Position numbers and translations under genes: made by a program
Notes under the pieces: model-generated
Databases searched by the model: none
Told to the model about the DNA's origin: nothing
The model's input: the letters and a program-made list of their open reading frames with translations, nothing else
Origin: Roseivirga sp. UBA6061
Lineage (GTDB): Bacteria > Bacteroidota > Bacteroidia > Cytophagales > Cyclobacteriaceae
Length of the DNA: 37,049 nt
Reading direction: 5' to 3'
Assembly (NCBI GenBank): GCA_002427745.1
Contig: DIYF01000109.1
Coordinates: forward strand, 1 to 37,049
In this document: one piece after another, positions 2,836 to 31,982 of the stretch
Layout: every line of letters begins with the position of its first letter
Numbering within the stretch: the first letter of the stretch is position 1

Positions 2836-2873
2836 AATTTCGAAGGTTATATTCTCAAAATGAAGACTTTATA

Positions 2874-8402: not shown

Positions 8403-8405
8403 GCT

Positions 8406-8736: not shown

Positions 8737-8744
<8 letters not shown>
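8406..8744 (-). CDS. RhaM-family L-rhamnose/L-fucose mutarotase
   Basis: Small (112 residues) dimeric alpha/beta-barrel type protein of the RhaM (former DUF718) family, which interconverts alpha and beta anomers of 6-deoxyhexoses. Visible features are the start YVLTLDLKDDPVLIAEYKRHH, then VWPEV, IYLLDNRLMM and the C-terminal WMLMEKIFDL. I chose the ATG at 8744 (MPKEYVL) because it overlaps the permease stop by only eight bases (ATGCCTAA); the longer start at 8765 would overlap by 29. Placed between a FucP-type permease and a lactate dehydrogenase, it likely works on L-fucose, although the family name is based on rhamnose. Confidence 0.88.
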
Positions 8745-11175
<2,431 letters not shown>

Positions 11176-12126: not shown

Positions 12127-14460
12127 ATGCTACGTAAGCGATTTTCAGCCTTCCTGCTCCTTTGTTCTGCGGCCCTTGTTACCTGGTGCTGTGAAAGCGG
12201 GAATCAATCGGGAGTACCGCTCTACAAGAATGCACAAGCCAGTGTAGAAAAACGGACAGAGGACCTTTTGTCCCGCATGACCCTTAAGGAAAAAGTAGCA
12301 CAAGTCATGTGCTTGTGGAACCAGAAGTCTTCCTTTCTCGATGAGGAAGGACATTTTTCATCCACAAAAGCAGATTCAGTTTTTCAATATGGCCTGGGAC
12401 AAATAGGACGGCCCAGTGAAAAGCGTAACGCCCATGAAATGGCTGAATTTACTAATGAGATTCAAAAGTACTTTCTGGAAAAAACCAGGCTTGGCATACC
12501 TGTGATATTTCACGAAGAATGCCTCCACGGACATGCAGCCCCTGATGGCACTCACTACCCGCAACCTATTGGTCTGGCCAGTACCTGGGACAGAGAGCTG
12601 GTACAGCAAATCTTCACAGCGACAGCCAGAGAGGCTCGTTTGAGAGGGGCTTCGCAGGCACTTACCCCCGTGGTAGATGTGGCCAGAGACCCCAGGTGGG
12701 GACGGGTGGAAGAAACCTATGGTGAAGACCCTTATCTGGTTGCTGAAATGGGACTTGCAGCCGTCAAAGGGTTTCAGGGAAAAGGGCCAGACATCGACAA
12801 GGAGCATGTGATTGCCACACTCAAGCATTTTGCCGCTCATGGTCAGCCAGAGTCAGGAAACAACATCGCCCCTGTGAATATTTCTGAGAGAACCCTCCGG
12901 GAAACGTTCTTTTTCCCTTTTAAAAAGTCTGTAGAACAAGGAGGGGTTATGAGTATTATGGCTTCGTACAATGAGATAGACGGGGTACCCTCTCACGCCA
13001 ATGACTGGTTGCTGAATAGGGTGTTGAGGCAGGAATGGGGTTTTGACGGAGTTGTAGTTTCTGACTATTTCGCTATTGGAGAACTGTTAAGCAGACATCA
13101 TATCGTACAGGACATGTCTGCGGCAGGGTCACTGGCACTGAAGTCGGGAGTGGATATAGAATTACCAGACCCACTGGCATTCCTTTCACTGGAAGAAAGC
13201 ATACTTAACGGGTCTCTTGATATAGCCTATCTGGATCAGGCCGTGAAGAGAATCCTCAGGCATAAATTTAAGGCCGGACTGTTTGATGACCCCTATGTAG
13301 ATCCTGAACTGGCCGATAAAGTGGTTGGTTCTGATGAGCACCGTGCACTAGCACTCAAAGCTGCCCAAAAAACCATTACTCTTCTTCAAAACAGGGAGAA
13401 CACAGCTCCTTTGGATCGCTCATCGTTGAAAACAATTGCTGTCATCGGCCCCAATGCCGACCGGCAGTTGCTTGGTGGTTATAGCGATCAGCCTAAACAG
13501 TTTGTAACGGTACTGCAGGGTATCAAAGAAAGAGCAGGTAAGGGCATTAATATTCTTTATGCCGAGGGTTGTAAAATCACTGAAGCCGGCAGCTGGTATG
13601 AAGACCCTGTTGAAAAGAGTGATCCGGAAGAAGATCTTAAAAGGATTAAAGAAGCTGTGGCTATCGCCCGGAAGGCCGATGTTGTTGTACTTGCCATAGG
13701 TGGCAATGAACTTACCTCCCGTGAAGGCTGGTCTGAGTCACATTTAGGAGACCGGACCGATTTGCAGATGGTAGGCCTGCAGGATGAGCTGGTAGATGCA
13801 CTGGCCAAAACCGGTAAGCCCATCATAGCTTTTCTCTTCAACGGGAAACCGTTGGCCATCAATAATGTCAGAGAAAAAGTACCTGTGATTTTTGAATCCT
13901 GGTATCTCGGTCAGGAGACCGGCTATGCCGTGGCAGATGTATTGTTCGGAGATATAAACCCCGGAGGCAAACTGCCCATATCCTTTCCGCGTTCCGTAGG
14001 CCATATTCCTGCTTATTACAATTATAAACCCACAGCAAGGCGTGGCTACCTTTTTGATGAGGTTTCTCCCCTGTTTTCATTCGGCTATGGTCTTAGCTAT
14101 ACCACTTTTGATATTTCAGATCCTGAACTAAAAGACAAACGCATTGGTCGCCAGGATACTACTCAACTTTCGGTGAGAGTGACCAATACCGGAGAAAGGG
14201 CAGGTGATGAAGTGGTACAGGTTTACCTCAGAGATAAAGTGAGTTCTGTGACAAGACCTGTCAAGGAGCTTAAAGAATTCAAACGCGTCACCCTAAACCC
14301 GGGAGAAACGAAACAGGTCAGCTTTCTGATTACTCCGGAGATGCTCTCATTCTATGATATCAACTTCGCATATACCGTTGAACCCGGAGACTTTGAAATC
14401 ATGGTGGGGTCTTCTTCAAGAGACCAGGATCTTAAAACTGTGACACTTACTGTACAATAA
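12127..14460 (+). CDS. GH3 beta-glucosidase, lipoprotein
   Basis: Retaining exo-glycosidase of 777 residues, probably releasing glucose from beta-glucan oligosaccharides. An N-terminal lipoprotein signal ends in VTWCC (Cys21/22). The barrel domain carries IFHEECLHG, WGRVEETYGEDPYL, KHFAAHG (K233-H234) and the nucleophile D313 in GVVVSDYFAIG. The alpha/beta sandwich (about 420-640) contains IGGNELTSREGWSE with the expected acid/base region, and a fibronectin-like domain (about 690-775, DEVVQVYLRD) closes the protein. It opens the plus-strand operon behind a canonical promoter and a palindromic operator, and its stop codon directly abuts the next ATG. The GH3 family also contains xylosidases; GH16 and GH30 in this locus favour glucan. 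Confidence 0.93.
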   Translation: MLRKRFSAFLLLCSAALVTWCCESGNQSGVPLYKNAQASVEKRTEDLLSRMTLKEKVAQVMCLWNQKSSFLDEEGHFSSTKADSVFQYGLGQIGRPSEKRNAHEMAEFTNEIQKYFLEKTRLGIPVIFHEECLHGHAAPDGTHYPQPIGLASTWDRELVQQIFTATAREARLRGASQALTPVVDVARDPRWGRVEETYGEDPYLVAEMGLAAVKGFQGKGPDIDKEHVIATLKHFAAHGQPESGNNIAPVNISERTLRETFFFPFKKSVEQGGVMSIMASYNEIDGVPSHANDWLLNRVLRQEWGFDGVVVSDYFAIGELLSRHHIVQDMSAAGSLALKSGVDIELPDPLAFLSLEESILNGSLDIAYLDQAVKRILRHKFKAGLFDDPYVDPELADKVVGSDEHRALALKAAQKTITLLQNRENTAPLDRSSLKTIAVIGPNADRQLLGGYSDQPKQFVTVLQGIKERAGKGINILYAEGCKITEAGSWYEDPVEKSDPEEDLKRIKEAVAIARKADVVVLAIGGNELTSREGWSESHLGDRTDLQMVGLQDELVDALAKTGKPIIAFLFNGKPLAINNVREKVPVIFESWYLGQETGYAVADVLFGDINPGGKLPISFPRSVGHIPAYYNYKPTARRGYLFDEVSPLFSFGYGLSYTTFDISDPELKDKRIGRQDTTQLSVRVTNTGERAGDEVVQVYLRDKVSSVTRPVKELKEFKRVTLNPGETKQVSFLITPEMLSFYDINFAYTVEPGDFEIMVGSSSRDQDLKTVTLTVQ

Positions 14461-16500
14461 ATGAATAGTCAAGCTATGAATCGAATGAAGTCAACATTGG
14501 CGATGCTTTGCTTAATTTCTACTTGTGCCGTTGCCCAGACCTCACATACCGGCATCAGAGATATTACCGCACTGGAAGTAACGGCTGAAATGGGGCCGGG
14601 AGCCAACCTCTGGAATACGCTGGATGCGAATTGCGGCTCACAGGAAGGGCTGGATAGTGAAACATGCTGGGGTAACCCCGTCACTACACCTGAGATGATT
14701 GCGGATATTAAAAACAGAGGCTTCAAAACACTAAGAATTCCGGTCACCTGGTACAACCACATGGGAGATGGTCCTGATTATCAAATTGATCAGACATGGA
14801 TGAATCGGGTTGAGCAAGTAGCAAACTATGCATTTGACAATGATATGTATGTAATTCTCAATATCCACCATGACGACTACGATGTTGAGAAGCCGGGAAC
14901 GTGGCTAAGCCCTACTGATTCAAGAAAAGCCGCCAGTATCGATCAGCTTGAAAAAGTATGGCTCCAAATTGCTAATCGCTTTAAAGAATATGGAGACTAT
15001 CTCATCTTTGAAACCATGAATGAACCACGTGCTGTCGGTACTCCTGAAGAGTGGAGTGGAGGCAGTGCGGAACACCGGGCTGTCGTTAATGAATTCAACC
15101 TCGCGGCTGTCAATGCCATTCGTAGTACCGGAGGGAATAATGCCGACAGATTCATCATGATACCTCAGGTAGGTGCTACCGGCCATGGTGCCATACAGGA
15201 CCTGTCTATCCCCAATGATGATGAAAAGATTATTGTATCTATTCACAACTACGGTCCTTTCTCATTTACACTGGAAGATCCCGGAACCAATCAATGGGGT
15301 ACGCCTCAGGAAGTAGAAAATCTGCAAAACGATATCAAATCCTATTACGATGCCTTTATAAGTAAGGGACGTGCGGTGGTTATAGGAGAATGGGGTGCTG
15401 CCGATAAAAATAACCTCGCCCACCGGGTAAAGTACTATGAAGTTTTTACCCAGGCCTGTATAGATAACCAAATCCCTCCTATCAACTGGATTTATTCTTA
15501 TGACCGGGCAACACGCACCTGGACGAACCCTGTCTTGGAAGATGCTATGTTCAGTTTATACAACCCTGAAGAGTTTAACAGCTACCCGGACCTCGCTTTT
15601 AAGGGAATTGATCTGGAAGAACTGGCTATTGCCGGTTCAGATGTCTCTTTTGAATTAGATGCTTCTGATCCCGATGGAGAAATCACCCATGTCGACCTCT
15701 ATATCAACAATCAGCTGGTGAGTCGCAAGACCTCAGCACCTTATCTCTGGAATGGCCAGGGAGAGGAGTCCGGGCTTAATAATCTGAGCAACGGGAGCTA
15801 TACAATAAGAGCAGAGGCCACAGACAACGACAACCAGACGAGCATCAAAGTAGTGGCCCTCAAGGTGATTCAGCCCACATCAGTCCCGACTAAAATGGAA
15901 GCAGAAAACTTCATCAGGCAATCGGGAGTTCAATCAGAATCTACAACAGATACCGGAGGAGGACAGAACATTGGTTTCATTGAAAATAGTGACTGGTCTG
16001 AATACTTTATCTACAACGATGAAGAGGGCATGCTGGAATTCACTGCGCGTGTTGCCTCAGCCAATGAAGGAGGCTTTATAGATATTCTCATAGACGGAAG
16101 TGAAGCCGAAACACTCGAGGTGGACGGAGACCAGACGAATGGCTGGCAAGACTGGTATACCACAGAAAGCATCCAGATTGAGTTAAGTGAGGGCAACCAC
16201 ACACTGACCCTGAACTATCGGGGGGGTAGTGGATTTCTGTTCAATTTGAACTGGCTGAATGTTGTGAAACCTATCATTCTCAATACAGAGGAAGACTTCG
16301 CTGAGAAAGACAAGGGCCTCTTTCCCAACCCCAGCTCTGAGGTGATCAACCTCACTCAGCCTGGCGAATGGAGTATATATACACCTGGTGGTGCCCTGCT
16401 CATTCATGGGACAGACCATACCATCAATGTTTCTCACCTTAAACGAGGTATATACGTACTCAGGCAAGGTCTGAATAGCTTTAAATTCATTAAAAATTAG
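14461..16500 (+). CDS. Secreted GH5 endoglucanase with Ig-like, CBM6 and T9SS sorting domains
   Basis: Multidomain endo-acting enzyme of 679 residues. A signal peptide (ending VAQ, residue 26; M9 could also start) precedes a GH5 barrel at about 35-368 with GFKTLRIPVTW, NIHHDD, acid/base E188 in ETMNEPR and nucleophile E310 in VVIGEWGA. An Ig-like domain follows at about 385-470 (SDPDGEITHVDLYINN), then CBM6 at about 476-603 (MEAENF, then GFIENSDW), and a type IX secretion C-terminal domain from about 615 (FPNPSSEVINL, ending KRGIYVLRQGLNSFKFIKN). It is therefore exported and probably surface-attached, unlike its lipoprotein neighbours. The ATG follows the GH3 stop with no gap. Beta-1,4- or mixed-linkage glucan are possible substrates; CBM6 fits beta-glucan or xylan binding. 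Confidence 0.93.
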   Translation: MNSQAMNRMKSTLAMLCLISTCAVAQTSHTGIRDITALEVTAEMGPGANLWNTLDANCGSQEGLDSETCWGNPVTTPEMIADIKNRGFKTLRIPVTWYNHMGDGPDYQIDQTWMNRVEQVANYAFDNDMYVILNIHHDDYDVEKPGTWLSPTDSRKAASIDQLEKVWLQIANRFKEYGDYLIFETMNEPRAVGTPEEWSGGSAEHRAVVNEFNLAAVNAIRSTGGNNADRFIMIPQVGATGHGAIQDLSIPNDDEKIIVSIHNYGPFSFTLEDPGTNQWGTPQEVENLQNDIKSYYDAFISKGRAVVIGEWGAADKNNLAHRVKYYEVFTQACIDNQIPPINWIYSYDRATRTWTNPVLEDAMFSLYNPEEFNSYPDLAFKGIDLEELAIAGSDVSFELDASDPDGEITHVDLYINNQLVSRKTSAPYLWNGQGEESGLNNLSNGSYTIRAEATDNDNQTSIKVVALKVIQPTSVPTKMEAENFIRQSGVQSESTTDTGGGQNIGFIENSDWSEYFIYNDEEGMLEFTARVASANEGGFIDILIDGSEAETLEVDGDQTNGWQDWYTTESIQIELSEGNHTLTLNYRGGSGFLFNLNWLNVVKPIILNTEEDFAEKDKGLFPNPSSEVINLTQPGEWSIYTPGGALLIHGTDHTINVSHLKRGIYVLRQGLNSFKFIKN

Positions 16501-17606: not shown

Positions 17607-20600
17607 GTGCCCAGATTTTTATTCTACATATTCTTTTCCCTCTTATCCAATTCAGTCATTGCGCAATCGTTTGAAAGAATCGAATCGCTGGCAGGCTTTG
17701 ATATCCTGTCTGAAAACAGTGGTGTAGCAGTGGCCGACTATGACGGGGACCTGGACCTGGACATCTTTGTTATGGCGAAAGCCAAAGACTCCCCTGACCG
17801 GCCTAAAACCATTAGCCGCCTTTTTCGCAATAATGATAACGGTACTTTCACCGATGTTACCTCTGAATCAGGTCTGACAAACCTGCTAGGTGAAAATGAA
17901 TTCGGAGAAACCTTTCTGGGCCTGAGCGGCTTCAAATACGGGGTGTCCTGGGGAGACTATGACAATGATGGCTTTCCGGATTTATTCCTGACACACGTTT
18001 CCAAAGTGCAGCTTTTTCACAACGAAGGGGATGGTACTTTTCGGGAGACTACAGCACAATCAGGACTCCATGTGGATCAGACGTGTAAAAACACCAGTGC
18101 CACCTGGTTTGATTACAATCGTGACGGATGGCTGGATCTCTACATTAATGATTGGGGAGGCTGCCGTGAAAACTCACTATACCGGAATAACGGAGATGGT
18201 ACTTTCCAGATCATTACAGGCATTATCGGTCCGGTAAAGGCTGATGGCAGCAGTTTACAGAGTTACATGATGTTGCCGTTTGATGTCAACGGTGACGGGT
18301 GGCAGGATATGTACGTCACCAATGATTTCAGAGAGCCCAATACCTTGTTTATCAATGAAGGAGGCACGGGTTTCCGTGAAGCTGCTGCCGAGTACGGCCT
18401 GGATAACCGGTTCGATGATATGGGTGTAACTCTGGGTGATTTTGACCAGGACGGAACCTTTGATCTGTTCATCACGGGTATCAGAGAAAACCGGTTATTC
18501 TCACGGAATGATGAAGGAGGCTATACAGACAAGTCTCACGAACTGGGACTAACTGAAACAGGCTGGGGCTGGGGTGCTCTTTTTGCCGATTTTGACCATG
18601 ATACTGATGAAGATTTGTACATGGTGAATGGTTTCAGCGTAGCCGACTTATCAGAACAAAACATTTATTTCAGGAATCTTCATAAGGAAGGCACCGGAGG
18701 TTTTGAAAAAGCTAGCTCTGTCACTGGCCTGAGTGCCGCAACCATGAGTACTGAGGCAATTCCGTTTGACTATGACAATGACGGGGACCTGGATTTGTTT
18801 GTCTCCAATTCAGACCAGCCTTCATTCTTTTACGAAAACAAGGTTATCAATGAACAGACTTCAGGAAGCAACAGCTGGCTGAAACTCTCGCTAACAGGAA
18901 CCGGCTCAAATATAAATGGTGTCGGGAGTCGAATCACGGCCATACTTGATGACGGGACCATTCTTCTGAGAAGCTATTCGGGGACTGGTTTTCTGTCTCA
19001 AAGTATTCAACCTGTTCATTTTGGTTGGCAGGGCACACAAAAAATAAGGGAGCTTCGGGTAGAATGGCCTTCAGGAATAACTGATACCTATCAGAATATA
19101 TCAGCCAATCAATGGCTCAACGCAAAAGAAGACCTCAACTATGAGCCACTCTCAAAAACACCCAGCATAAAGACAGCCGGATGTACCGACCCCAGAGCCT
19201 GTAACTATAATCCGCTGGCCACCAAGAGTAATCTCAGCTGCCGGTATCTGGCTGGTTCAACTGATGTTTTTGGCAAGATGCGTTCAGGCTATCACCAACT
19301 GGAGACTTACACTTATCTGAATAATACCGATTCAGAAGTAATCTGGGAGGTTGAAGGAGGAGAGATCATATCCGGCCAGGGGACTCAGTCCATACAGGTA
19401 AGATGGGGTTTTGGAGAGAAAGGAACGGTAAGCTGGCATGAAAGAAACGGGGATTGTGAAAGTCTCACCAGCTTTCTGGAGGTAGAACTCAGCTTTTCAG
19501 AAGTGGACCTGAATACCCTGTCTGTCGCCAGGATATGGAACGAAGCACTCTTGCAGGCCATCCGTACCGACCTGGCAAGGCCCAACGTACATGCACGTAA
19601 TCTTTTCCATGCATCCATTGCCACCTATGATACCTGGGCCATTTTTTCAAACAATGCCCGCCCCTATCTGGTTGGTCAGACGCTGAATAATTTCAGCAGC
19701 GACTTTCAGGGCTTTACTGCTATCGATAACAGCAGAGAGTCGATCGATAAAGCTATAAGCTTTGCCAGTTACCGTTTGCTTAGTCACCGTTTTGCCCATG
19801 CACCCGCCTCAGACGAAAAGCAGCAATTCTTCAGGCGGATCATGGAAGAACTGGGCCACGACCCTGATTTCAATTCCATGGATTATAGTGACGGGAACCC
19901 TGCTGCGCTTGGCAACTTCATCGGTCAGACGATTATAGATTATGGGCTACAGGATGGTGCTCGCGAGGCTACTGATTATGATAACGGAAGTTATGAGCCT
20001 GTCAATTCGCCATTGAACCTATCTGACCCGGGAGTAAGCCAGACAATAGATCCCAACCGATGGCAACCCTTACAATTCAGAACCTTTGTAGACCAGAGTG
20101 GCAACCTCTTTGATGAGGCCACTCCGGGCTTTTTAGGGCCTGAGTGGGGCTCAGTGCTGCCTTTCGCCATGACTGATAATCACCTGAGTACTTATGTAAG
20201 AAACAACCACAACTACCCTGTCTATCATGACCCGGGTAGTCCTCCGCACCTGGATACAGAAGCCAGTCATATTTCAAGCCGGCAATATCAATGGAATTTT
20301 GCGCTTGTGGCTCTATGGAGCGGGCAGCTAAGTCCTCATGATGAGGTGTCCTGGGATATCTCTCCAGGCAATATGGGCAACATTACTGTCAGTGAATTCC
20401 CGACTTCTTTTGATGAGTTTAAAAGCTTTTATGCAAGGACTGAGCAGGGAATTATCGGAGAAGGACATGCCGTCAATCCGATTACAGGCAGGCCTTACGA
20501 GCCTCAGTTTGTACCAAGAGGAGACTTCACCCGAGTGCTTGCCGAATTTTGGGCAGACGGACCCGATAGTGAAACCCCACCAGGCCACTGGTTTACTATT

Positions 20601-21626
20601 CTGAATTATGTAAATGATCACCCTGAATTCAGCAGAAAATTTGAGGGCCAGGGCTCTCCCCTTTCCACTTTGGAATGGGATGTTAAAGCCTATTTTGCCC
20701 TGGGAGGCGCCATGCACGATGCTGCTGTAGCTGCATGGGGCATCAAAGGCTGGTACGACTATGTTCGCCCGATCACGGCCATACGTTTCATGAGTGGCCT
20801 CGGGCAAAGCTCAGACCCTGATTTACCCAACTATCATGTTGGTGGCATTCCCTTGTCACCGGGACATATTGAATTAGTCGGGACGGAAGATCCTCTGCGC
20901 GGTTTTGAAAATGAGCATGTCGGAAAAATTAAGCTATTCTCCTGGCTCGGGCATGAGCGCATTACCAATCCTGATACGGATGAAGCAGGTGTTGGCTGGA
21001 TTCTGGCCGAAAATTGGTGGCCATACCAGCGTCCCTCTTTTGTAACTCCGCCCTTCGCAGGTTATGTATCCGGCCATTCTACCTATTCACGTGCCGCAGC
21101 AGAGGTGCTCACCCTCCTGACAGGCAGTGCTTTTTTCCCCGGAGGTCTTGGCGAATTTACCGCCAGGAAAAATGAATTCCTGGTATTTGAAAAGGGGCCT
21201 TCTACGGATGTTGTGCTTCAGTGGGCTACCTACCGCGATGCTTCAGACCAGACCAGCCTTTCCCGGATCTGGGGAGGTATTCACCCTCCTGTAGATGATA
21301 TACCGGGCAGGCGCATAGGAGAAAAGGTAGGCACCGATGCCTATGCTCATGCCAGAAGCTATTTCAATCTGTCAGACGAGCCATCGGAAGAATCGGATGA
21401 TTTTCAGGTTTACCCCAATCCTACATCAGACAGAGTACTTTTTGTTACCAATACCACAGTTAATGACTCCTTTTCACTATTCGGAACTTTCAGTAAACAG
21501 ATTCCGATTTCGGTGACATTTGATGCCACCACCAGAACTTCACAAGTCAGATTCTCCGAGGCCATAAGCAGTGGCCTCTACATACTCTCAAAAAACAATA
21601 AAACGAAAAAAATAATCATTGAGTGA
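17607..21626 (+). CDS. FG-GAP/ASPIC - vanadium haloperoxidase fusion with T9SS tail
   Basis: 1339 residues. A GTG start at 17607 is the only start in frame, since a stop lies at 17592-17594, and it leads straight into a signal peptide ending VIAQ (residue 20). Seven FG-GAP/VCBS-type Asp-rich loops (near 44, 118, 169, 226, 278, 328 and 388, for example DYDNDGFPDLF) suggest a seven-bladed propeller; an ASPIC/UnbV domain follows at about 430-508, then a short Cys-containing linker (526-545). A PAP2-fold vanadium haloperoxidase domain spans about 635-1253 with all three vanadate motifs: K1047-x6-R1054-P1055, S1155-G1156-H1157, and S-R1220-x5-H1226-x3-D1230. A T9SS tail runs from about 1267 (VYPNPTSDRV). 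It probably acts outside the cell, oxidising halide with hydrogen peroxide, though phosphatase activity is a known alternative for this fold. Confidence 0.9.
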   Translation: MPRFLFYIFFSLLSNSVIAQSFERIESLAGFDILSENSGVAVADYDGDLDLDIFVMAKAKDSPDRPKTISRLFRNNDNGTFTDVTSESGLTNLLGENEFGETFLGLSGFKYGVSWGDYDNDGFPDLFLTHVSKVQLFHNEGDGTFRETTAQSGLHVDQTCKNTSATWFDYNRDGWLDLYINDWGGCRENSLYRNNGDGTFQIITGIIGPVKADGSSLQSYMMLPFDVNGDGWQDMYVTNDFREPNTLFINEGGTGFREAAAEYGLDNRFDDMGVTLGDFDQDGTFDLFITGIRENRLFSRNDEGGYTDKSHELGLTETGWGWGALFADFDHDTDEDLYMVNGFSVADLSEQNIYFRNLHKEGTGGFEKASSVTGLSAATMSTEAIPFDYDNDGDLDLFVSNSDQPSFFYENKVINEQTSGSNSWLKLSLTGTGSNINGVGSRITAILDDGTILLRSYSGTGFLSQSIQPVHFGWQGTQKIRELRVEWPSGITDTYQNISANQWLNAKEDLNYEPLSKTPSIKTAGCTDPRACNYNPLATKSNLSCRYLAGSTDVFGKMRSGYHQLETYTYLNNTDSEVIWEVEGGEIISGQGTQSIQVRWGFGEKGTVSWHERNGDCESLTSFLEVELSFSEVDLNTLSVARIWNEALLQAIRTDLARPNVHARNLFHASIATYDTWAIFSNNARPYLVGQTLNNFSSDFQGFTAIDNSRESIDKAISFASYRLLSHRFAHAPASDEKQQFFRRIMEELGHDPDFNSMDYSDGNPAALGNFIGQTIIDYGLQDGAREATDYDNGSYEPVNSPLNLSDPGVSQTIDPNRWQPLQFRTFVDQSGNLFDEATPGFLGPEWGSVLPFAMTDNHLSTYVRNNHNYPVYHDPGSPPHLDTEASHISSRQYQWNFALVALWSGQLSPHDEVSWDISPGNMGNITVSEFPTSFDEFKSFYARTEQGIIGEGHAVNPITGRPYEPQFVPRGDFTRVLAEFWADGPDSETPPGHWFTILNYVNDHPEFSRKFEGQGSPLSTLEWDVKAYFALGGAMHDAAVAAWGIKGWYDYVRPITAIRFMSGLGQSSDPDLPNYHVGGIPLSPGHIELVGTEDPLRGFENEHVGKIKLFSWLGHERITNPDTDEAGVGWILAENWWPYQRPSFVTPPFAGYVSGHSTYSRAAAEVLTLLTGSAFFPGGLGEFTARKNEFLVFEKGPSTDVVLQWATYRDASDQTSLSRIWGGIHPPVDDIPGRRIGEKVGTDAYAHARSYFNLSDEPSEESDDFQVYPNPTSDRVLFVTNTTVNDSFSLFGTFSKQIPISVTFDATTRTSQVRFSEAISSGLYILSKNNKTKKIIIE

Positions 21627-21664
21627 CGACCTACCATAGTCACAGAACAAACAAAATTCCAAGG

Positions 21665-23071
21665 ATGAACAAAATTACCCTATTATCTCTCGCACTACTA
21701 TTCTGTTCGGGTTGTACCAGGCCTTCAAAAAATGTTGAATGGATTTCAAGTACAGATCAGGCCCCATGGAAATCCGAAATGGTAACATCAGGCACCGGAA
21801 CTTCGGAAGGTGATGTCATCACCATATTTCCCGAAAAGCTCCAGCAGGAAATAGACGGATTTGGAGGCTGTTTCAACGAGCTGGGCTGGGAGGCGCTACG
21901 CGTTTTGGATGAGCCTGCCAGAAAGAAGGTAATGACTTCATTGTTTCATCCTACAGACGGTACGCACTTTAACACATTCAGAATGCCGCTGGGAGCCAAC
22001 GACTATGCTGTAGACTGGTACAGTCACAACGAGACGGCAGGTGACTTTGAAATGAAGCACTTCAATATTGAAAGAGACCAGCAAAGACTGATCCCTTACA
22101 TCAAAGAAGCACAAGCTTTTAATAAGCATATAAAGGTATGGGCTTCTCCCTGGGCGCCTCCATCATGGATGAAATCAAATAATCACTATGCCTGTCGCCC
22201 CAATGTGGTAAACGACCTGTCTCCCGATAAAGCCGGAGAAGAAATGGTCACTCAGTTTATGATGGAGAAGGAATACCTGGACGCTTACGCTCTGTACTTC
22301 TCCAAATTTATCCAGGCCTATCAGCAGGAAGGTATTGATATCTATGCAGTCCACGTGCAAAATGAGCCCAACTCCTGTCAGAATTTCCCCTCATCTGTCT
22401 GGACTCCTGAAGATCTTGGTACTTTCATAGGAAAGCATCTGGGCCCCAAACTGGCAGAGGAAGCCCCTGAAACAGAAATATGGCTCGGCACCGTTGAGCG
22501 ACCACATATTGACAGGATAGACCCTATACTCACTGATGCGGATGCCGGAAAATATATCGCTGGAGTAGGCTTCCAATGGGCCGGAAAAGGAGCTATCCCG
22601 GAGGTGCATAAAAAATATCCTGACATAAGACTGATGCAGACGGAAACGGAGTGCGGTGATGGATCAAACGACTGGAAAGCGGCAGAGTACACTTTCAACT
22701 TAATGAAGCATTATTTTAATAATGGTGCCAATTCCTACATGTACTGGAATATGGTTCTGAATGAAACAGGAAAAAGTCAGTGGGGGTGGAAGCAAAACTC
22801 CATGATCACGATAGACAGCCAATCAAAGGCTGTGACTTATAATCCTGAATTCTATCTGATGAAACACTTCAGCAACTTTATTAAAGCCGGGGCTCATAAA
22901 GTAGAAAGCTCTGATGAGAATTGTCTGGCTTTCAAAGATAATGAGCAGCTCACCCTGATCTATTACAATGCAGGTAATAATACCTCTAAAACCTTTCACT
23001 TTGGTGAACAGTCATTCGATGTGACACTGGCGGCAAAATCGTTCAACACATTTGTGGTTCCTCTTAGCTGA
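21665..23071 (+). CDS. GH30 beta-glucanase/glucosidase, lipoprotein
   Basis: 468 residues from the ATG at 21665, which is followed by a clear lipoprotein signal (lipobox FCSGC, Cys17). A GTG at 21623, overlapping the haloperoxidase stop, would add 14 residues ahead of that signal and is disfavoured. GH30 features: the start IDGFGGCFNELGWEAL, FRMPLGANDYAVDWYS, WASPWAPPSWMK, acid/base Glu234 in VQNEPN, the nucleophile region MQTETECGDG (probably Glu327), YMYWNM, and a C-terminal beta-sandwich with YLMKHFSNFIKAGA. GH30 contains beta-1,6-glucanases and beta-glucosidases; with GH16 and GH3 nearby, beta-1,6-linked side chains of a laminarin-type glucan are the likely target. Subfamily not determined. 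Confidence 0.92.
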   Translation: MNKITLLSLALLFCSGCTRPSKNVEWISSTDQAPWKSEMVTSGTGTSEGDVITIFPEKLQQEIDGFGGCFNELGWEALRVLDEPARKKVMTSLFHPTDGTHFNTFRMPLGANDYAVDWYSHNETAGDFEMKHFNIERDQQRLIPYIKEAQAFNKHIKVWASPWAPPSWMKSNNHYACRPNVVNDLSPDKAGEEMVTQFMMEKEYLDAYALYFSKFIQAYQQEGIDIYAVHVQNEPNSCQNFPSSVWTPEDLGTFIGKHLGPKLAEEAPETEIWLGTVERPHIDRIDPILTDADAGKYIAGVGFQWAGKGAIPEVHKKYPDIRLMQTETECGDGSNDWKAAEYTFNLMKHYFNNGANSYMYWNMVLNETGKSQWGWKQNSMITIDSQSKAVTYNPEFYLMKHFSNFIKAGAHKVESSDENCLAFKDNEQLTLIYYNAGNNTSKTFHFGEQSFDVTLAAKSFNTFVVPLS

Positions 23072-23080: not shown

Positions 23081-24823
23081 ATGACTTTAAAGAAGATACT
23101 TTACACAGCGGTCGCAGCTGTATCTCTTGCAGGTTGCAGTTCCCAAATGACCGAGCCTGTGACGGATGGGTTTGTGACCGTTTGCAACCCAATGGACCTG
23201 AGCTACCGCTTCAGACCGGAAACGAATGAGGTTTCAAGAAGAGAAGCTGCAGACCCTTCAGTAATTCGTTTTAAGGATCGCTATTTCCTCTTTGCCTCCA
23301 AGTCAGGAGGGTACTGGCATTCGAAAGACCTGCACCAATGGCAGTTTATCCGCAGTACAGAAATACCTACAGAAGAATATGCACCAACGGCCATTGTCCT
23401 GAATGATGCTGTTTATTTTCTGGCTTCATCCAGGGAGAAGAGCACCATTTATAAATCCAGCGATCCTATGACCGGAAAGTGGAGTGTAGTGAGTGATCTG
23501 GAAATACCCGTCTGGGACCCTGCGTTTCACCTGGAAGAGGCTACCAATGAGCTCTATCTCTATTGGGGTTGCTCTAACGAAACACCCATTTATGGTGTAA
23601 AACTGGACCCTCAGCATGACTTTTCTTTCATAGACACTCCAAAAGAGCTGATTCATCAGCAGCCTGAGCTACTGGGCTGGGAAGTACCCGGAGATTACAA
23701 TGAACGCAAAGGGGTAAAGCCCTGGATAGAAGGGGCCTGGATGAACAAACACAAGGGTACCTACTACCTGCAGTATTCAGGGCCCGGTACAGAGTTTAAG
23801 TCTTATGCTGACGGGGTCTATACATCTGATAATCCTCTCGGTCCTTTTCAGCTGGCCACGCATAATCCTATGGCCTACAAACCGGAAGGGTTTGCTGCCG
23901 GAGCAGGCCATGGCAGCACTTTTACGGATGATTATGGCAACTACTGGCATCTGGGTACCATTACTATTTCAGGTAAGCACATCTTTGAAAGAAGGCTGGG
24001 TTTTTACCCTTCCTTTTTTGATGAGGAGGGCACGCTTCATACTACCACAAAATATGGTGACTGGCCTGTTATAGTGCCAGATAGTAAGATCAGCACATTT
24101 GAAGAGATATTTCCGGGCTGGATGCTGCTCTCTTACGGCAAAAAAATCATGGTTTCTTCAGAAGCAGAAAAGCAGCCTGCGCAAAACATGGCCGATGAAG
24201 ACATACGTACCTACTGGGCTGCCACCAGTGGCAAAGCAAGTGAGTGGGCTGTGATGGACCTGGGAAAGTCTTATGATGTCTATGCGCTTCAGATCAATTT
24301 TGCCGAGCATAACACTCAGGTTTATGATCGTAAGGAAGGCCTCTTCCACCAATACCTCATCGAGTACTCCACGGACAATCGTGAATGGATACCTCTTATC
24401 GATAACTCAGCAAATCAAACAGACAACACGCATGTCTATCAGCAACTGGACAACAAAGTACGCTGCCGCTATTTGCGGATTAAAAACCGGGCAGTACCTG
24501 ACGGTAACTTTGCCATTAGCGATTTGCGCGTATTCGGAAAAGGTGATGGAAGCAGACCCGGCCAGGTTAAAGACTTACAGCTTACCCGCTCTGCTGAAGA
24601 CAGACGCACCCTGTCACTAACCTGGTCACCTGTGGAAAAAGCCGTGGGCTACAACATATCTTATGGTACTTCCCGGGACAAACTCTACCATAATTACATG
24701 GTTTATGACACAACCATGCTCACTATCAACAGTCTGAATAGTAATCAGACCTACTATTTCAGCATTGAAGCTTTCAATGAAAACGGTATTGGAGATACGG
24801 CCTTAGTCAAAAAAGCAGATTAA
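23081..24823 (+). CDS. GH43-like glycosidase with CBM32 (F5/8) and FN3 domains, lipoprotein
   Basis: 580-residue lipoprotein (lipobox SLAGC, Cys19). A five-bladed GH43-type propeller covers about 35-365; candidate catalytic acids are D58 in ADPSVIRF, D146 in VWDPAFHL and E217 in WIEGAW, matching the Asp-Asp-Glu triad of GH43. A F5/8 type C (CBM32-like) domain lies at about 370-497 (SGKASEWAVMDLGKSYDVYALQINF) and a fibronectin type III domain at about 500-578 (LTWSPVEKAVGYNISYGT). It starts nine bases after the GH30 stop and is last in the operon. GH43 is best known for arabinosidases and xylosidases, with some galactanases; in a beta-glucan locus the actual specificity is open. Confidence 0.85.
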   Translation: MTLKKILYTAVAAVSLAGCSSQMTEPVTDGFVTVCNPMDLSYRFRPETNEVSRREAADPSVIRFKDRYFLFASKSGGYWHSKDLHQWQFIRSTEIPTEEYAPTAIVLNDAVYFLASSREKSTIYKSSDPMTGKWSVVSDLEIPVWDPAFHLEEATNELYLYWGCSNETPIYGVKLDPQHDFSFIDTPKELIHQQPELLGWEVPGDYNERKGVKPWIEGAWMNKHKGTYYLQYSGPGTEFKSYADGVYTSDNPLGPFQLATHNPMAYKPEGFAAGAGHGSTFTDDYGNYWHLGTITISGKHIFERRLGFYPSFFDEEGTLHTTTKYGDWPVIVPDSKISTFEEIFPGWMLLSYGKKIMVSSEAEKQPAQNMADEDIRTYWAATSGKASEWAVMDLGKSYDVYALQINFAEHNTQVYDRKEGLFHQYLIEYSTDNREWIPLIDNSANQTDNTHVYQQLDNKVRCRYLRIKNRAVPDGNFAISDLRVFGKGDGSRPGQVKDLQLTRSAEDRRTLSLTWSPVEKAVGYNISYGTSRDKLYHNYMVYDTTMLTINSLNSNQTYYFSIEAFNENGIGDTALVKKAD

Positions 24824-25035: not shown

Positions 25036-26151
25036 TTATTGGTAAACACGCACATAGTCTACTTCCATAGAGCTCTGTTCAAATTCCGGGTCAATGTTGA
25101 ACCAATCGCCTCCCATGGCCACATTTAACAGAATGAACTGATCTGCTGTGAATGGCCAGTTTTCAGTCGTTTTAGTAGCCGGCTTATACTTATACCTGAA
25201 CTCATCGTCTATGTAAAAACGAATTTCGTTTTCAGTCCAGACGGTTGAATAAATATGGAATTCGGTATCAAAGTCTGAAACGGTTGTTTCTCCAACCGCT
25301 GCATCACAGTTGTTGGCACCGGAACAAGCCACCGTGTGAATTGCGCTTGACACTTTAGTAGGATTGTGCCCCCAGTGTTCCATAATGTCTATTTCGCCAC
25401 AGGCGGGCCAGCCTACCGTAGTAATATTTGAACCCAGGGTCCAGATGGCAGGCCAGGTTCCCTCCCCTGCCGGCAATTTGGCCTTGACATCAACCCTTCC
25501 ATATGTAAAAGAGAAGCGTGAGTTGAGCCTGGCTGAAGTGTAGCTCAAAGTAATTCCGCTACTGCTGAATTGCTCTTTACGGGCCATTATTTTCAGCGTC
25601 CCGTCAGATACAAATGAGTTTTCAATGCGGTCAGTGTAGTGCTGTTCTTCACCATTCCACCACCTCCCCCCATTGGGGCCCTGTGTTTCGTGAATCCACT
25701 TAGTGTTATCTACAGCGCCATCACCCTCGAATTCATCAGACCAGACCAGATCAGTGAAACTGACAGGGCTCACATAAACCGTTACATTTTCTGAAGTACT
25801 TATGGCGTTATCCGTATCAGAATACGCAGTGACTCTTATACGGTAGAGGTTATCTCCCTCCAGCTTGTATGTGTGCTCTGCCATTCCCGTACTGCTGTCA
25901 ACCTTGTCTTCAGGACCAAAGTCAAATTCGTATCTGACGGCATCATTGGCGGTAGCTACACATCTCACCAGCCCGGAACCATCTCCGTTCGGGTTTTGTG
26001 CATCACTCCCCACGATGGTAGTCGCCAATGTCAGATTGGTAGGAGTCACTTCTGAGGGGCCTCCTTCACCAGAATCCTTACATGATAAACTGATGAGGGC
26101 TATGAAAACGCAAAGGACTAATTTGAAAGAGCTGTTATAACAACTTCGCAT
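25036..26151 (-). CDS. GH16 laminarinase-like endo-beta-1,3-glucanase with PKD-type domain, lipoprotein
   Basis: 371 residues: lipoprotein signal ending LSC (Cys24), a PKD/Ig-like domain at about 35-130 (VRYEFDFGPEDK, then AEHTYKLEGDNLYRI), and a GH16 beta-jelly-roll catalytic domain at about 131-371. The catalytic motif E253-I-D255-I-M-E258 sits in GEIDIMEHWG, and the surrounding segments WPAIWTLG, RWWNGEEQHYT and FHIYSTVWTENEIRFYIDD are typical of bacterial laminarinases. It is the last gene of the minus-strand SusC-SusD operon. A hairpin with a T-rich tail in the 80 bases upstream may reduce its expression relative to SusC and SusD. The family also includes lichenases and agarases, but the motif spacing favours beta-1,3-glucan. 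Confidence 0.94.
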   Translation of the reverse strand: MRSCYNSSFKLVLCVFIALISLSCKDSGEGGPSEVTPTNLTLATTIVGSDAQNPNGDGSGLVRCVATANDAVRYEFDFGPEDKVDSSTGMAEHTYKLEGDNLYRIRVTAYSDTDNAISTSENVTVYVSPVSFTDLVWSDEFEGDGAVDNTKWIHETQGPNGGRWWNGEEQHYTDRIENSFVSDGTLKIMARKEQFSSSGITLSYTSARLNSRFSFTYGRVDVKAKLPAGEGTWPAIWTLGSNITTVGWPACGEIDIMEHWGHNPTKVSSAIHTVACSGANNCDAAVGETTVSDFDTEFHIYSTVWTENEIRFYIDDEFRYKYKPATKTTENWPFTADQFILLNVAMGGDWFNIDPEFEQSSMEVDYVRVYQ

Positions 26152-27023: not shown

Positions 27024-27040
27024 GATTTTTTCTTTTTTGA

Positions 27041-28759
27041 CTAGTTCCAACCCGGGTTTTGTGTAAGCACTCCATTAGACAGCCTGATATCTGTTTGAGG
27101 GAATGGCATCAGACCCTTTATTTCCGGGCGATAGGTAGCATTATATACTCCATCGACACCCAGGTTTCTTACATTGATAACATCTGTAAAAGCAGTGTTT
27201 ACATCACCCCAACGTACAAGATCAAACCATCTTAAGCCTTCAAAAGCCAGCTCATGAAGACGTTCTTGTTTCAGGGCATCCACTGAATAACCCACAGCGG
27301 GAAGTCCGGCACGCGCTCTCACTGTGTTGATTCCTGTAGCTGTCTGCGTGATTTCCGAGTGCATGAGGAGCACATCTGCCATACGCATTAAAATCATATC
27401 CTGAGAATGCCAGAGTTGCATATCTGTATTCGGGTTGTTGTACAGGTAGGCAAACATGGCTATTACACCTCTCGCACCATCGTGTTGAACAGAGGTATAC
27501 TTTTTATTAAAAAAGCCGGTATTATGATCGCCTTCTCCGGACTGGTCATAATTCTGAGTACCCTGATCAGGGTTACCAATCTCTATGATCGATCCCTGCT
27601 TTCTCGGGTCAGCATCGTCCCATTGATTCCAAAGCTTTGGGTTAACTGGTCCCCAACCCCAACCTTGTCCAAAAGGAACCAGGCTATTGCCTCTGATTGA
27701 GAAAAACAGCGCAACGCGATTATTGATTTTCTGACCACCAAAATTCCAGTCAGCGGATGAATGCCTTACAGAGAAAATAGTTTCTGCATTGCCGGTACCA
27801 ATTGTAGGGAAAAGTCCGTCCTGACCTACCCAGGCCAGTCCCTCATTATCTGCCCATGGAAGCGTAGCATTACCGGCAGACTGATTTACATGTGCATATG
27901 GCCAGAGGTTTCTGAAATCAGTTGCTAGTGCATGACCACTGTTGGCAATCAAATCATTCAGGTAACCTTCGATATCAGTCGCAGTCACACTACCACCATC
28001 CGTCAGAGGCAACTCACTGGTAGCCTGCCCTTCCATATTGGTCATGTAACCGGTATAATAAAGATAGGCACGGGCCATAAAGGCCTCTGCTACCCACTTG
28101 TTGGCATGCCCGTAACGATTACCCGGAATTTGTGAAATAGGTACAGCCGGCATGGTTTCGATGGCCTTCTTAAAGTCGGAGGCTATTTGAGCATAAGTTT
28201 CAGGGATAGTACTTCTGCCGGTGGTAAAGCGATCCTGTCCGGTTTCTAAGATCAGCGGCAGGCCTCCGAAAAACTTAGCAGCTCTGAGGTAGAAGAAACC
28301 TCTCATGAAATAGGCTTCTCCAATCGCCTGATTTACGAAGTCAATCGCATCTTGCTCATTATCGAAAAACTGAGTGAAATCAAACCTTTCAATGTTCTCG
28401 ATAATGCCATTAGACCGGTTTACACCGTCATAGGTTTTTCTTAAAAGGTCACGAAATACATCTTCCCGCGTTTCACGGAATGCATCGATTTCCTTTGCCA
28501 CGGCATCATCTGTGCCTCCTCCTGCCAACATCATGTCTGATAACAGGTTGGCTATGATAATCTCGTGAGAAACGGGGTCATCGGTGTAAAGCGCATGATA
28601 TACACCACCAAATGCCTCATCTATCTCTGTAGGAGTAGAATAAAAACCTTCAAGGTCTCTTTCAAAAGGGTTGACCTCTGTTAGAAAGTCATCTGTATCA
28701 CAAGCAATAGCGAATCCCAAGAGAGCTATTATCAACAAATATTGTATTGATCTTTTCAT
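27041..28759 (-). CDS. SusD/RagB-family nutrient-binding outer membrane lipoprotein
   Basis: 572 residues from the ATG at 28759, which leads into a lipoprotein signal (lipobox AIAC, Cys20, followed by Asp residues as in surface-exposed lipoproteins: DTDDFLTEVNP). SusD-like features include the N-terminal TPR-type helices (DAIDFVNQAIGEAYFMRGFFYLRAAKFFGGLPLI), the C-terminal RMADVLLMHSEITQ and VRARAGLPAV, and the closing ERLHELAFEGLRWFDLVRWG. It acts as the lid of the SusC transporter and captures oligosaccharides at the cell surface. The gene follows susC after 22 bases and precedes the Trp-rich binding protein. The chosen start avoids the upstream ATG at 28795, which lies inside the SusC gene. 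Confidence 0.95.
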   Translation of the reverse strand: MKRSIQYLLIIALLGFAIACDTDDFLTEVNPFERDLEGFYSTPTEIDEAFGGVYHALYTDDPVSHEIIIANLLSDMMLAGGGTDDAVAKEIDAFRETREDVFRDLLRKTYDGVNRSNGIIENIERFDFTQFFDNEQDAIDFVNQAIGEAYFMRGFFYLRAAKFFGGLPLILETGQDRFTTGRSTIPETYAQIASDFKKAIETMPAVPISQIPGNRYGHANKWVAEAFMARAYLYYTGYMTNMEGQATSELPLTDGGSVTATDIEGYLNDLIANSGHALATDFRNLWPYAHVNQSAGNATLPWADNEGLAWVGQDGLFPTIGTGNAETIFSVRHSSADWNFGGQKINNRVALFFSIRGNSLVPFGQGWGWGPVNPKLWNQWDDADPRKQGSIIEIGNPDQGTQNYDQSGEGDHNTGFFNKKYTSVQHDGARGVIAMFAYLYNNPNTDMQLWHSQDMILMRMADVLLMHSEITQTATGINTVRARAGLPAVGYSVDALKQERLHELAFEGLRWFDLVRWGDVNTAFTDVINVRNLGVDGVYNATYRPEIKGLMPFPQTDIRLSNGVLTQNPGWN

Positions 28760-28781
28760 GTTTCGTCTTTTAGAATAAGTA

Positions 28782-31700
28782 TTAGAATGAAGCATTGATA
28801 CCGAATATTACTGTTCTTGGCAGTGGGTAAAGGCCAAGATCCACACCGGAAGCCCAGGGAGCTCCACCACCATACCCCACTTCAGGGTCCATACCATGAT
28901 AGCCGGTAAACGTGTGGAGATTAGTCACCTGAACATAGAACTTCAGGTCATCAAAGAAGTCGAGGCCATTCAGTAAGTCTTTAAAATTATATCCTACTGT
29001 CAGGTTTTGTATTCTTACATAATCTGCATCATACACATATATATCAGAGATAAAATTGGCGTTTCTATTGGGGCTTGCACTCAGACGAGGCATTCTGTTG
29101 GACGTGCCCTCTCCATGCCAGCGCTGTAAATCAAAGGAGGTATAGTTCTGCATAGTGGGTCCATTAAAGTCCCTGTAGGAATTCATTACCTGCATACCGA
29201 ATTTACCCACCAGCGTAGAGTTCATATAGAAGTTCTTCCAGCCGAGGTTCAGTTGAAGTCCCATCTCAAAATCGGGAGTAGGATTACCAATGATGGTTTT
29301 GTCTTCTTCGTTAATCACTCCGTCACCATTGAGGTCGACAAAGCGTACGTCACCGGGTCGTTGATCTGGAAAATAGGGTGCTCCTTCACTATTTACATAA
29401 GCATCAACTTCGTCCTGATTTTGAAGGATACCGTCTGTTCGGTAGCCATAGAATACTCCTATTGGCGAACCGACACGAGCTATTGATATAGCGGGTGTGT
29501 TCGTTGAAAAGAAGTTAGTAGGACCTTCAAACTCCTGCGCATCATTTTCGATTCTTGTTACTTCATTGTCATTGAAAGCAGAGCTCAACGTGATGCCATA
29601 ATCAATATCTCCTATCTCATCCTGCCAATCGAGCATGATTTCGAAACCACTGTTTTCAATCTCACCACCGTTAATTACCGGAGGAGCAGCACCTAATAAA
29701 GCAAAGTCAGGCGCAGTCACTAACCAGTCACGTGTCGTCTTTTTGTACCAGTCGAAAGTAAAAGCCAGTCTTGAGTCATATAATAGTGCGTCAAATCCAA
29801 CATTGATTTGTTCTGAAGTTTCCCATGAGATATTGGGGTTGGGCACTCTGTTTATTACCGTACCGGGAGAGGATACCGGTTTGTTATTTCCAAAGAAATA
29901 AGCCGGTGCTATGTTACCCACGGTGGCTGAATACAGGAAAGAACCAACGCTGTTATTACCATTCTGCCCCCAGCTAGCCCTCAGCTTCAATGAGTTTAAT
30001 TGCTTTGGTGCTGCAGCCATAAAGTCTTCATTACTTATCAGCCATCCTGCTGAGAAAGACGGGAAGACACCAAATCGGAAACCATCGGCAAAGTTGGAAG
30101 AACCATCTCTTCTGACGGTAGCATCAAAGAGGTACTTCTCTTTGTAGTTGTAGCTTAATCTTGTCAGGATTCCCTGAATTCCACCACCAATAGCTGCCCA
30201 GTCACGGCCCCATGCCTGAATCTGGGTAATGTCCTGGGGTGGAAAGGTATTATCGAGGAAAGCCTCATCGGGATCATTTGATATGGTATTCAGCCTGTTC
30301 GCTCCAACATTGGTATTCAATACGGGGTAGTTTCTCTCAAAACCCACCACAGCTGATAAGTTATGATCGCCAAAAGACCTGTTGTAGGAGGCGGTATGCT
30401 GTACGGTATACCATGTATTGAGCCATTGACTCTGGCTGGCCGCACTTACACTGTTGAGTTGCCTTTGTCCCAAACCAAATGTAGGAGAGAATCCCCTGCT
30501 GTGCCCAAAGCCCAGGTTGACCCCCAGCTTCGACTGAATCACGAGGTTTTCGATAGGCTCGATGCTCAGATAGACATTACCGTTAACGGAATGACCTGTG
30601 CCCCAGCCAAAGTTGTTTGTATAAAAGAGGCTGGCTGCCGGGTTGGACTGTCCCGGGTCTACCCCATCGAGGTTGGGAGCAAACCCGAACTCGTTATTAA
30701 AACCATTCCAACGTACCGGTTGCAGTGGGTTTTGTACAATGGCATTGTGCAGGTCATTCCAGTATACGTTACCGGTTCTGACATTTCTTGTGCGGTTGGA
30801 GGTATAGGTAATCCGTTCACCAAATTTTATGATGTCCCGATCTGCGTTTTTAACAATGGTGGCTTCGGAGTTTAACCTGACCGTGAGCCTTTTCAAGCCG
30901 GCACCGATGAGGTCTCCACCTATAATACCTTCCTGGTCTAAATAAGATACCGCTGCAGAATAGGTGATGTTCTCGCCACTTCCTGTAATGTTTACACTGT
31001 TGAATTGCTGAGCCGCATTTCTGTTGGTAATGGCATCAATCCAGTTAGTTCCCTGCCAGCCGTTCTGAAGCTGGTTCCACACGTAGTCTCCATACTCGCC
31101 TCCCAGTCCTGGCTGTTGCAGGTCAAGCCATAAATTGTTTCTCAGGGTTGTTTCCCAATCCAATAACGGAAGGCCATCATTAAAACGTCCTTCATTGATC
31201 AGCTGCATATACTCCTGAGCATTGAGCGGATCAACATTCTTATATACATTCTGGAAACCGTAGTAAGAGTCAAAATAGACCTTCATAGGGGCACCCTTTC
31301 TGCCACTCTTTGTCGTGACCAAAATCACCCCGTTCGCAGCTCTTGCACCATATATCGCAGCCGAGGCAGCGTCTTTCAGTACAGACACAGACTCAATATC
31401 TGTGGGAGACAGGTAATCAATACTACCTACATAGACACCGTCTACTACATACAGAGGGTTGGAATTTCCGTTGGTACCGATACCCCTGATTCTGACACGG
31501 GTTCCCGCTCCGGGTGCTCCATTGTTTCGTGTGATACTTACACCCGGGGCTATCCCCTGAAGGCCTTCCATCACAGAAGGAGTGTTGAGCTCCTTAATTT
31601 TATCCCCTTTCACATCAAGGTTCGCACCTGTAAGGAGTTTCTTCTTTTGTGTGCCATACCCCACTACCACTACTTCTTCGAGCAGGGAAATCTTGGGCAC

Positions 31701-31982
31701 CATCGAAACGTTGATGCTCTCATTATTCGCAATGACAATCGTTTGCGGCTCGTAGCCTAAAAAAGAGAGAACCAGTGTTTCTCCTACTTCAGCGGGTACG
31801 GAAAAATCCCCCAAAGCATTTGTAATAGCTCCTCTGTCAGTGCCTTTCACCATCACAGACACGCCTGGTAAGGGGGCTCCCAGCTCGTCTTTCACATTGC
31901 CCTTGATTGTGCCGGACTGTGAAAAGACCGTATGAGACAATGCTAAAAGCATTACCAAACATGCGATTTTAAGTTTTACCAT
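28782..31982 (-). CDS. SusC/RagA-family TonB-dependent outer membrane transporter
   Basis: 1066 residues from the ATG at 31982, which is followed directly by a signal peptide ending VFSQ; the farther ATG at 32054 adds 24 residues before that signal. Order: a carboxypeptidase-regulatory-like domain (GTIKGNVKDELGAPLPGVSVMVKGT, ending at about residue 95), a TonB-box-like EEVVVVGYGTQKKK, a plug domain with SVLKDAASAAIYGARAANGVILVTTKSG, the SusC signature, and a 22-strand-type barrel ending in the usual Phe (INASF). It imports oligosaccharides with SusD using TonB energy. The locus enzymes suggest beta-glucan oligosaccharides. The upstream HTCS gene is on the same strand 389 bases away, so susC probably has its own HTCS-dependent promoter. 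Confidence 0.96.
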   Translation of the reverse strand: MVKLKIACLVMLLALSHTVFSQSGTIKGNVKDELGAPLPGVSVMVKGTDRGAITNALGDFSVPAEVGETLVLSFLGYEPQTIVIANNESINVSMVPKISLLEEVVVVGYGTQKKKLLTGANLDVKGDKIKELNTPSVMEGLQGIAPGVSITRNNGAPGAGTRVRIRGIGTNGNSNPLYVVDGVYVGSIDYLSPTDIESVSVLKDAASAAIYGARAANGVILVTTKSGRKGAPMKVYFDSYYGFQNVYKNVDPLNAQEYMQLINEGRFNDGLPLLDWETTLRNNLWLDLQQPGLGGEYGDYVWNQLQNGWQGTNWIDAITNRNAAQQFNSVNITGSGENITYSAAVSYLDQEGIIGGDLIGAGLKRLTVRLNSEATIVKNADRDIIKFGERITYTSNRTRNVRTGNVYWNDLHNAIVQNPLQPVRWNGFNNEFGFAPNLDGVDPGQSNPAASLFYTNNFGWGTGHSVNGNVYLSIEPIENLVIQSKLGVNLGFGHSRGFSPTFGLGQRQLNSVSAASQSQWLNTWYTVQHTASYNRSFGDHNLSAVVGFERNYPVLNTNVGANRLNTISNDPDEAFLDNTFPPQDITQIQAWGRDWAAIGGGIQGILTRLSYNYKEKYLFDATVRRDGSSNFADGFRFGVFPSFSAGWLISNEDFMAAAPKQLNSLKLRASWGQNGNNSVGSFLYSATVGNIAPAYFFGNNKPVSSPGTVINRVPNPNISWETSEQINVGFDALLYDSRLAFTFDWYKKTTRDWLVTAPDFALLGAAPPVINGGEIENSGFEIMLDWQDEIGDIDYGITLSSAFNDNEVTRIENDAQEFEGPTNFFSTNTPAISIARVGSPIGVFYGYRTDGILQNQDEVDAYVNSEGAPYFPDQRPGDVRFVDLNGDGVINEEDKTIIGNPTPDFEMGLQLNLGWKNFYMNSTLVGKFGMQVMNSYRDFNGPTMQNYTSFDLQRWHGEGTSNRMPRLSASPNRNANFISDIYVYDADYVRIQNLTVGYNFKDLLNGLDFFDDLKFYVQVTNLHTFTGYHGMDPEVGYGGGAPWASGVDLGLYPLPRTVIFGINASF

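Follow-up and report, generated by a model that had tools for sequence, protein, structure and literature searches.

The locus raises the question of why one gene should join an FG-GAP/ASPIC beta-propeller to a vanadium haloperoxidase (VHPO), and whether its place among glycoside hydrolases tells what the product is for. It lies on contig DIYF01000109.1 of Roseivirga sp. UBA6061, analysed here over a stretch of 37,049 nucleotides (the window). With somewhat better than even confidence, we favour an exported two-module enzyme, probably a non-selective VHPO placed by an exchangeable propeller.

One open frame encodes a propeller and a peroxidase

The initial annotation had described a single 1339-residue gene carrying seven Asp-rich FG-GAP loops, an ASPIC/UnbV domain and a haloperoxidase, and this architecture was borne out by one open frame with Pfam domains of both halves. 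The stop-to-stop frame measures 1343 codons, so that the start of the gene is well bounded. Its features are as follows.

17607..21626, +, fused gene, 1339 aa (open reading frame, GTG start)
17607..17666, +, putative N-terminal signal peptide, residues 1-20 (by-eye reading of the sequence)
17706..18866, +, FG-GAP beta-propeller with seven Asp loops (Pfam, structure model, loop pattern)
18918..19115, +, ASPIC/UnbV domain, residues 438-503 (Pfam)
19179..19241, +, Cys-rich hinge GCTDP..CNYNP, residues ~525-545 (alignment with relatives)
19242..19511, +, PKD-like spacer (PF19408 matches in some relatives, none in the window protein)
19524..21386, +, VHPO domain, residues ~640-1260 (Pfam, sequence and fold matches)
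20745..20768, +, K1047 to R1054, K-x6-R-P motif (VHPO alignment)
21069..21077, +, S1155-G1156-H1157 (VHPO alignment)
21264..21284, +, R1220 and H1226, the latter the presumed vanadate ligand His (VHPO alignment)
21408..21620, +, T9SS C-terminal sorting domain, residues 1268-1338 (weak match)

In the N-terminal half, FG-GAP_3 matched over 6 stretches (134.8 bits), and pattern matching gave seven Asp loops in this calcium-loop propeller, at residues 44, 117, 169, 226, 278, 328 and 388. FG-GAP repeats followed by ASPIC/UnbV are also the arrangement of the CRTAC1/ASPIC-UnbV propeller proteins (9etn), whose fold the fused protein shares by Foldseek. The model of this half was good (mean pLDDT 88.9), and its best PDB match was mouse CRTAC1 (E 1.8e-25, TMq 0.64), followed by integrin, fungal propeller lectins and Bacteroides sensor domains at E values of about 1e-10 to 1e-9. 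The propeller half may bind sugar. The Cys-rich hinge behind it was present in the window protein and in 16/16 aligned fused relatives of the main clade, and was missing in one other fused locus, L063.

Export by the type IX secretion system (T9SS), which had been read from the C-terminal tail, stands as likely in view of the machinery protein SprA (2434.9 bits) and the many T9SS tails that a genome scan detected in the same genome. The tail itself has to be graded as weak, because Por_Secre_tail scored just below its cut-off (22.9 against 27 bits) and TIGR04183 (cut-off 23) reached 21.1 bits when the whole protein was scanned and 26.7 bits when the genome was, which leaves the tail under the cut-off in two of three scans.

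The fusion is common among relatives

A contig scan gave 494 candidates encoding a relative, of which the best 80 were taken. At 54 of these 80 fetched named loci the peroxidase was fused to an FG-GAP/ASPIC half, and the other 26 held a VHPO frame without a propeller. Together with the window, the fused genes occupied 55 loci and 57 ORFs, with tandem copies in L010 and L036. Of 7997 proteins scored in a protein search, 6119 were related to the peroxidase half at E <= 1e-30, and UnbV_ASPIC was found in 111 of the 119 relatives listed besides the window protein; this share is inflated, since the search admitted only lengths between 0.55 and 1.75 times that of the query and thus dropped short stand-alone VHPOs. 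The fusion is therefore real and common among relatives, and an origin by assembly error, which was considered as its explanation, is ruled out by the 54/80 loci and the 111/119 listed relatives.

The relatives listed bore names such as FG-GAP-like repeat, VCBS repeat, ASPIC and UnbV, T9SS-sorted, secreted, DUF6851 or hypothetical protein, and "haloperoxidase" appeared in none of the names shown (names were partly displayed and many rows nameless). Among 59 genomes (that of the window and 58 relatives, with at most 10 candidates scored in each), 18 had a match at E <= 1e-60. Both halves lay in one frame in G000, G011, G024, G025 (three copies) and G034. Judged by identity of domains or agreement of coordinates, G011 is very likely the Roseivirga MAG OFTM338, of the same genus as the window genome, and G025 and G034 are very likely Marinoscillum furvescens and Splendidivirga corallicola.

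The peroxidase half keeps every vanadate-site residue

The vanadate-site residues named by the initial annotation (K1047, R1054, S1155-G1156-H1157, R1220 and H1226) were confirmed in position and did not vary in 83/83 aligned VHPO domains; the alignment held 83 of the 85 VHPO ORFs, the two dropped being fragments of L075. All three vanadate-site motifs, K-x6-R-P, S-G-H and S-R-x5-H, are present. Pfam placed DUF6851 at residues 672-821 and gave VCPO_2nd 25.2 bits, just below the cut-off of 27. In fold comparisons the VHPO fold was found in the C-terminal half with 332-408 aligned residues across the 13 best entries, and the predicted fold agrees with that of vanadate-bound VHPOs. The model of this half was built from 20 sequences and had a mean pLDDT of 65.5; the blocks holding the site residues averaged 44-50, so that the pocket geometry is of low confidence.

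Descent from VHPOs is no proof of halide oxidation, because NapH3, which is among the closest folds, is described in its entry title as a VHPO homologue catalysing a rearrangement. The fused protein could accordingly be a non-oxidative relative of the NapH3 kind that acts on one substrate. We consider this unlikely, although it is the best placed of the alternatives: SGH is kept in 83/83 domains of the family, its His occupying the acid-base position, whereas the best VHPO sequence match, 9l8x, has SGS there. A preprint ties selective VHPO enzymes to a catalytic Lys and Ser, which also argues against a NapH3-like enzyme if, as we infer, that Ser is the third position of SGH/SGS.

A prediction of the halide from W1044 and F1150 was dropped, since the same W and F positions occur in the aligned Zobellia iodoperoxidase and since halide specificity of VHPOs is placed in outer shells around the site by a 2025 paper (PMC11871015).

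The glucan setting appears local

The window genes around the fused gene are the following.

12127..14460, +, GH3 (Pfam, NCBIfam)
14461..16500, +, endoglucanase-like GH5 carrying CBM6 and a T9SS tail (nearest to cellulases and endoglucanases)
21623..23071, +, GH30 (closest solved relative 5ngk; 4-base overlap with the end of the fused gene)
23081..24823, +, GH43 with F5/8-type domain (weak match)
25036..26151, -, GH16 (closest to GH16 endo-1,3-beta-glucanases, i.e. laminarinases)
27041..28795, -, SusD
28782..32054, -, SusC-like TonB-dependent receptor
32372..36526, -, hybrid two-component sensor/regulator

The fused gene thus lies among SusC/SusD, a sensor and glucan hydrolases, and its reported placement between glycoside hydrolases was confirmed, with GH5 upstream and GH30/GH43 downstream. 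The nearest structure to GH30, 5ngk, was deposited as a glucosylceramidase, and the best NCBIfam model for the window GH30 was endo-1,6-beta-glucanase (166 bits, far under the cut-off of 700). Because GH30 overlaps the fused gene by 4 bases and GH43 begins 9 bases past GH30, the three genes are probably on one transcript, and a transcript shared with these members of a beta-glucan locus means that the fused gene may be co-induced on glucan.

This arrangement would suit a member of the glucan pathway, as the initial annotation had suggested, in which halide oxidation or an oxidative loosening of the algal matrix would form one step in using laminarin, or serve as a defence linked to that use. 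The fused gene is flanked by GH5 and the overlapping GH30, the window GH16 is nearest to laminarinases, and PMC9296495 reports upregulation of a Zobellia iodoperoxidase on one brown alga. Further points in its favour come from the other fused loci. SusD was found at 9 of the 54, against an expectation of 2.84 (P 0.0015, a mild enrichment) or, with the whole locus length, of 3.34 (P 0.0046), where placement is assumed to be random and six genomes with capped scoring entered with their first-look candidate number; it was found at 1 of the 26 stand-alone named loci. A loose tie of fused genes to polysaccharide loci is apparent from these counts. Homologues of the window hybrid sensor occurred at three fused loci (L018, L047, L055) and at two others, and GH2 and pectate-lyase-like genes, each 3 of 106 scanned neighbours, adjoin some fused genes. 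At four fused loci (L037, L039, L043, L063), SusC was detected without SusD by profile.

Against membership in a glucan pathway stands the lack of conservation. Searches at E <= 1e-15 over the loci from L009 onward found no homologue of the window GH3, GH5, GH30 or GH43, so that no conserved association with these glucan genes was seen in relatives; GH16 had homologues at L057, which is fused, and at the stand-alone loci L075 and L083. The neighbours were mixed (106 scanned, 25 of 140 families listed): T9SS-tailed genes 9, epimerases 7, SprT-like 7, RecX 5, RNase E/G 4 and redoxins 4, in clusters that are lineage-bound. SpoU was also among the neighbours, and like RecX, SprT-like and RNase E/G it counts against a glucan role. 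Neither a constant gene partner nor an H2O2 source was found adjoining the fused gene among the 106 neighbours, four of which were redoxin-like. Taken together, these findings make a glucan-pathway role improbable, and the glucan link looks local to the window genome. Of the glucan setting originally proposed, a probable beta-glucan locus stands; a general tie to glucan use is not supported, as the window GH3, GH5, GH30 and GH43 were not found near relatives.

Propeller and peroxidase are paired repeatedly

A tree was built from 95 VHPO domains, 61 of them fused and 34 alone, with near-copies kept in. It requires two changes of the fused label, both of them forced by starred branches. The main fused group comprises 59 domains including that of the window (support 88, not starred). 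The fused domain of L063/G011 sits among stand-alone domains and lacks the hinge, for which a second, separate fusion is the simplest reading. In the other part of the tree, the window genome's own stand-alone VHPO paralogue is placed with a copy from the same genus.

The propeller tree comprises 95 sequences (44 fused, 5 adjacent and 46 free, the fused ones and 42 of the 46 free ones being our selection) and needs six changes of the fused label, every one forced by starred branches. The propellers of L041 and L053 nest within free-standing ones, that of L041 being 59-60% identical to its best free-standing match, although the peroxidases of both loci branch well inside the main fused group. 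Two further propeller types occur, one in L052 and one in L032/L039/L043. Since the hinge is retained in L041 and L032, the differing propellers of the fused clade are most simply explained by a swap of the part upstream of the hinge. The two trees were built by a quick method and carry only SH-aLRT support; some branches of the propeller tree are long, and the label changes are unpolarised.

Moreover, an FG-GAP/ASPIC gene directly adjoins a stand-alone VHPO at 5 of 40 distinct loci (38 genomes), at a gap of 4 to 155 bases by frame ends; the pairs are convergent in L073 and L109, on the same strand in L083 and L113, and divergent in L102. UnbV_ASPIC was detected in all five adjoining genes. 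The other 35 loci had no adjoining propeller gene, which weighs against the two-module reading; in L062, L075, L079 and L081 an FG-GAP match lay farther off. With 412 ASPIC matches counted over 234 Mb, and assuming a density of 0.9 genes per kb and two neighbours for each gene, ~0.15 such pairs would be expected (Poisson-binomial P ~4e-7), a statistic that ignores relatedness and was calculated after the first cases had been seen, with short flanks at some of the 40 loci. The second fusion, the differing propeller types and the adjacency suggest that the two modules probably function jointly. This coupling is stronger than the glucan link.

Proposed function of the fused protein

We propose that the T9SS tail would carry the fused protein out of the cell, where the propeller, as an exchangeable placing module, would fix the peroxidase at a surface, be it the cell envelope, a glycan matrix or another cell. 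H1226 would bind vanadate, with K1047, R1054, S1155, G1156 and R1220 holding it in place and H1157 serving as acid-base residue. In the C-terminal half, H2O2 would then oxidise halide to hypohalous acid, probably without substrate selectivity. We further raise the possibility, tentatively and with less than even confidence, that ASPIC/FG-GAP propellers are general, interchangeable partners of VHPOs, the same peroxidase being paired by fusion, replacement or adjacency with differing propellers in differing lineages, so that the propeller type would set the site of hypohalous acid production.

The motifs K-x6-R-P, SGH and S-R-x5-H-x3-D are common to acid phosphatases and VHPOs, and the vanadate-site motif by itself does not tell a haloperoxidase from a PAP2 phosphatase; what carries the VHPO reading is the match of the whole domain in fold and sequence. 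A phosphatase or phosphotransferase of the PAP2 type, collecting phosphate from organic matter, with the propeller as binding module, would share these motifs and suits the presence of 3bb0, an apo-chloroperoxidase trapped in dephosphorylation, among the fold matches, but it is the least probable of the alternatives in view of the extended VHPO fold, the VHPO matches by sequence, DUF6851 and sub-threshold VCPO_2nd, and Pfam matches that include no phosphatase family; no phosphatase was among the fold matches listed for this half either, an absence that excludes nothing.

Should the fused proteins be active, extracellular hypohalous acid and halogenated organic compounds would have a source that has been overlooked. 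The repeated pairing is a testable clue to the role of ASPIC propellers and, if these are interchangeable VHPO partners, would offer a way into the function of the whole ASPIC/CRTAC1 family. The fused protein is a conserved union of two known families, and no description of it or its setting was found among openly licensed PMC papers by title and start of abstract; PMC12188728 names haloperoxidase in its reference list only.

Its fold and vanadate-site elements are common to the solved VHPOs (Zobellia iodoperoxidase 4cit/4usz, NapH1 3w35/3w36, XhnO11 9l8x and Curvularia chloroperoxidase 1vni), with 13-20% identity in structural alignment. Those chains have 410-576 residues, whereas the domain here is one half of a protein that also carries the propeller and a T9SS tail. 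Unlike the listed free-standing ASPIC propellers, which commonly stop after ASPIC and are often T9SS-tailed, the fused protein continues with hinge and peroxidase. Stand-alone T9SS-tailed VHPOs without a propeller occur in same-genus genomes, and the paralogue G000:C173:11449-13593 (737 aa, likewise without propeller) is 57% identical to the fused protein across VHPO and tail.

Neighbours and copy number of the fused gene

Redoxin/thioredoxin-like genes, all belonging to one cluster, lie immediately downstream of the fused gene at four loci of the contig scan (L029, L041, L052 and L054) and are arranged in tandem at the first three. These neighbours raise the possibility of a thiol or peroxide link. 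The fused gene itself is duplicated in tandem at L010 and L036. Stops interrupt the vanadium haloperoxidase (VHPO) frame at two sites:

L075:3287-5521, VHPO frame broken by stops
G023:C101:22977-24869, VHPO frame broken by stops

Further genes in the window

The window carries a second sugar module:

1378-11898, minus strand, second sugar module

It encodes a sulfatase, an alpha-L-fucosidase, GH20, an FMN-dependent dehydrogenase, a mutarotase, an MFS transporter, an SDR and an NrtR/AraR-like regulator. Two frames adjoining the glucan genes, of 281 aa (16531-17376) and 272 aa (26232-27050), had no match in Pfam.

Other VHPO architectures and the genomes compared

A different fusion was found at one locus:

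L069:6651-10142, VHPO, leucine-rich repeat and Ig domains and a T9SS tail in one fusion

The VHPO frames at L067, L072, L081 and L085 are likewise longer. The protein-search relative P0002 (2103 aa) carries three tandem VHPO domains in a single protein, each scoring 351-358 bits. L022 and L034, from records titled Algicola sp., a name implying Pseudoalteromonadaceae, were placed within Flavobacteriaceae by the VHPO-domain and propeller trees alike. The window's genome (8.2 Mb) and G008 (8.6 Mb) compare with 2.1-5.8 Mb in the 17 other listed genomes of the same genus.
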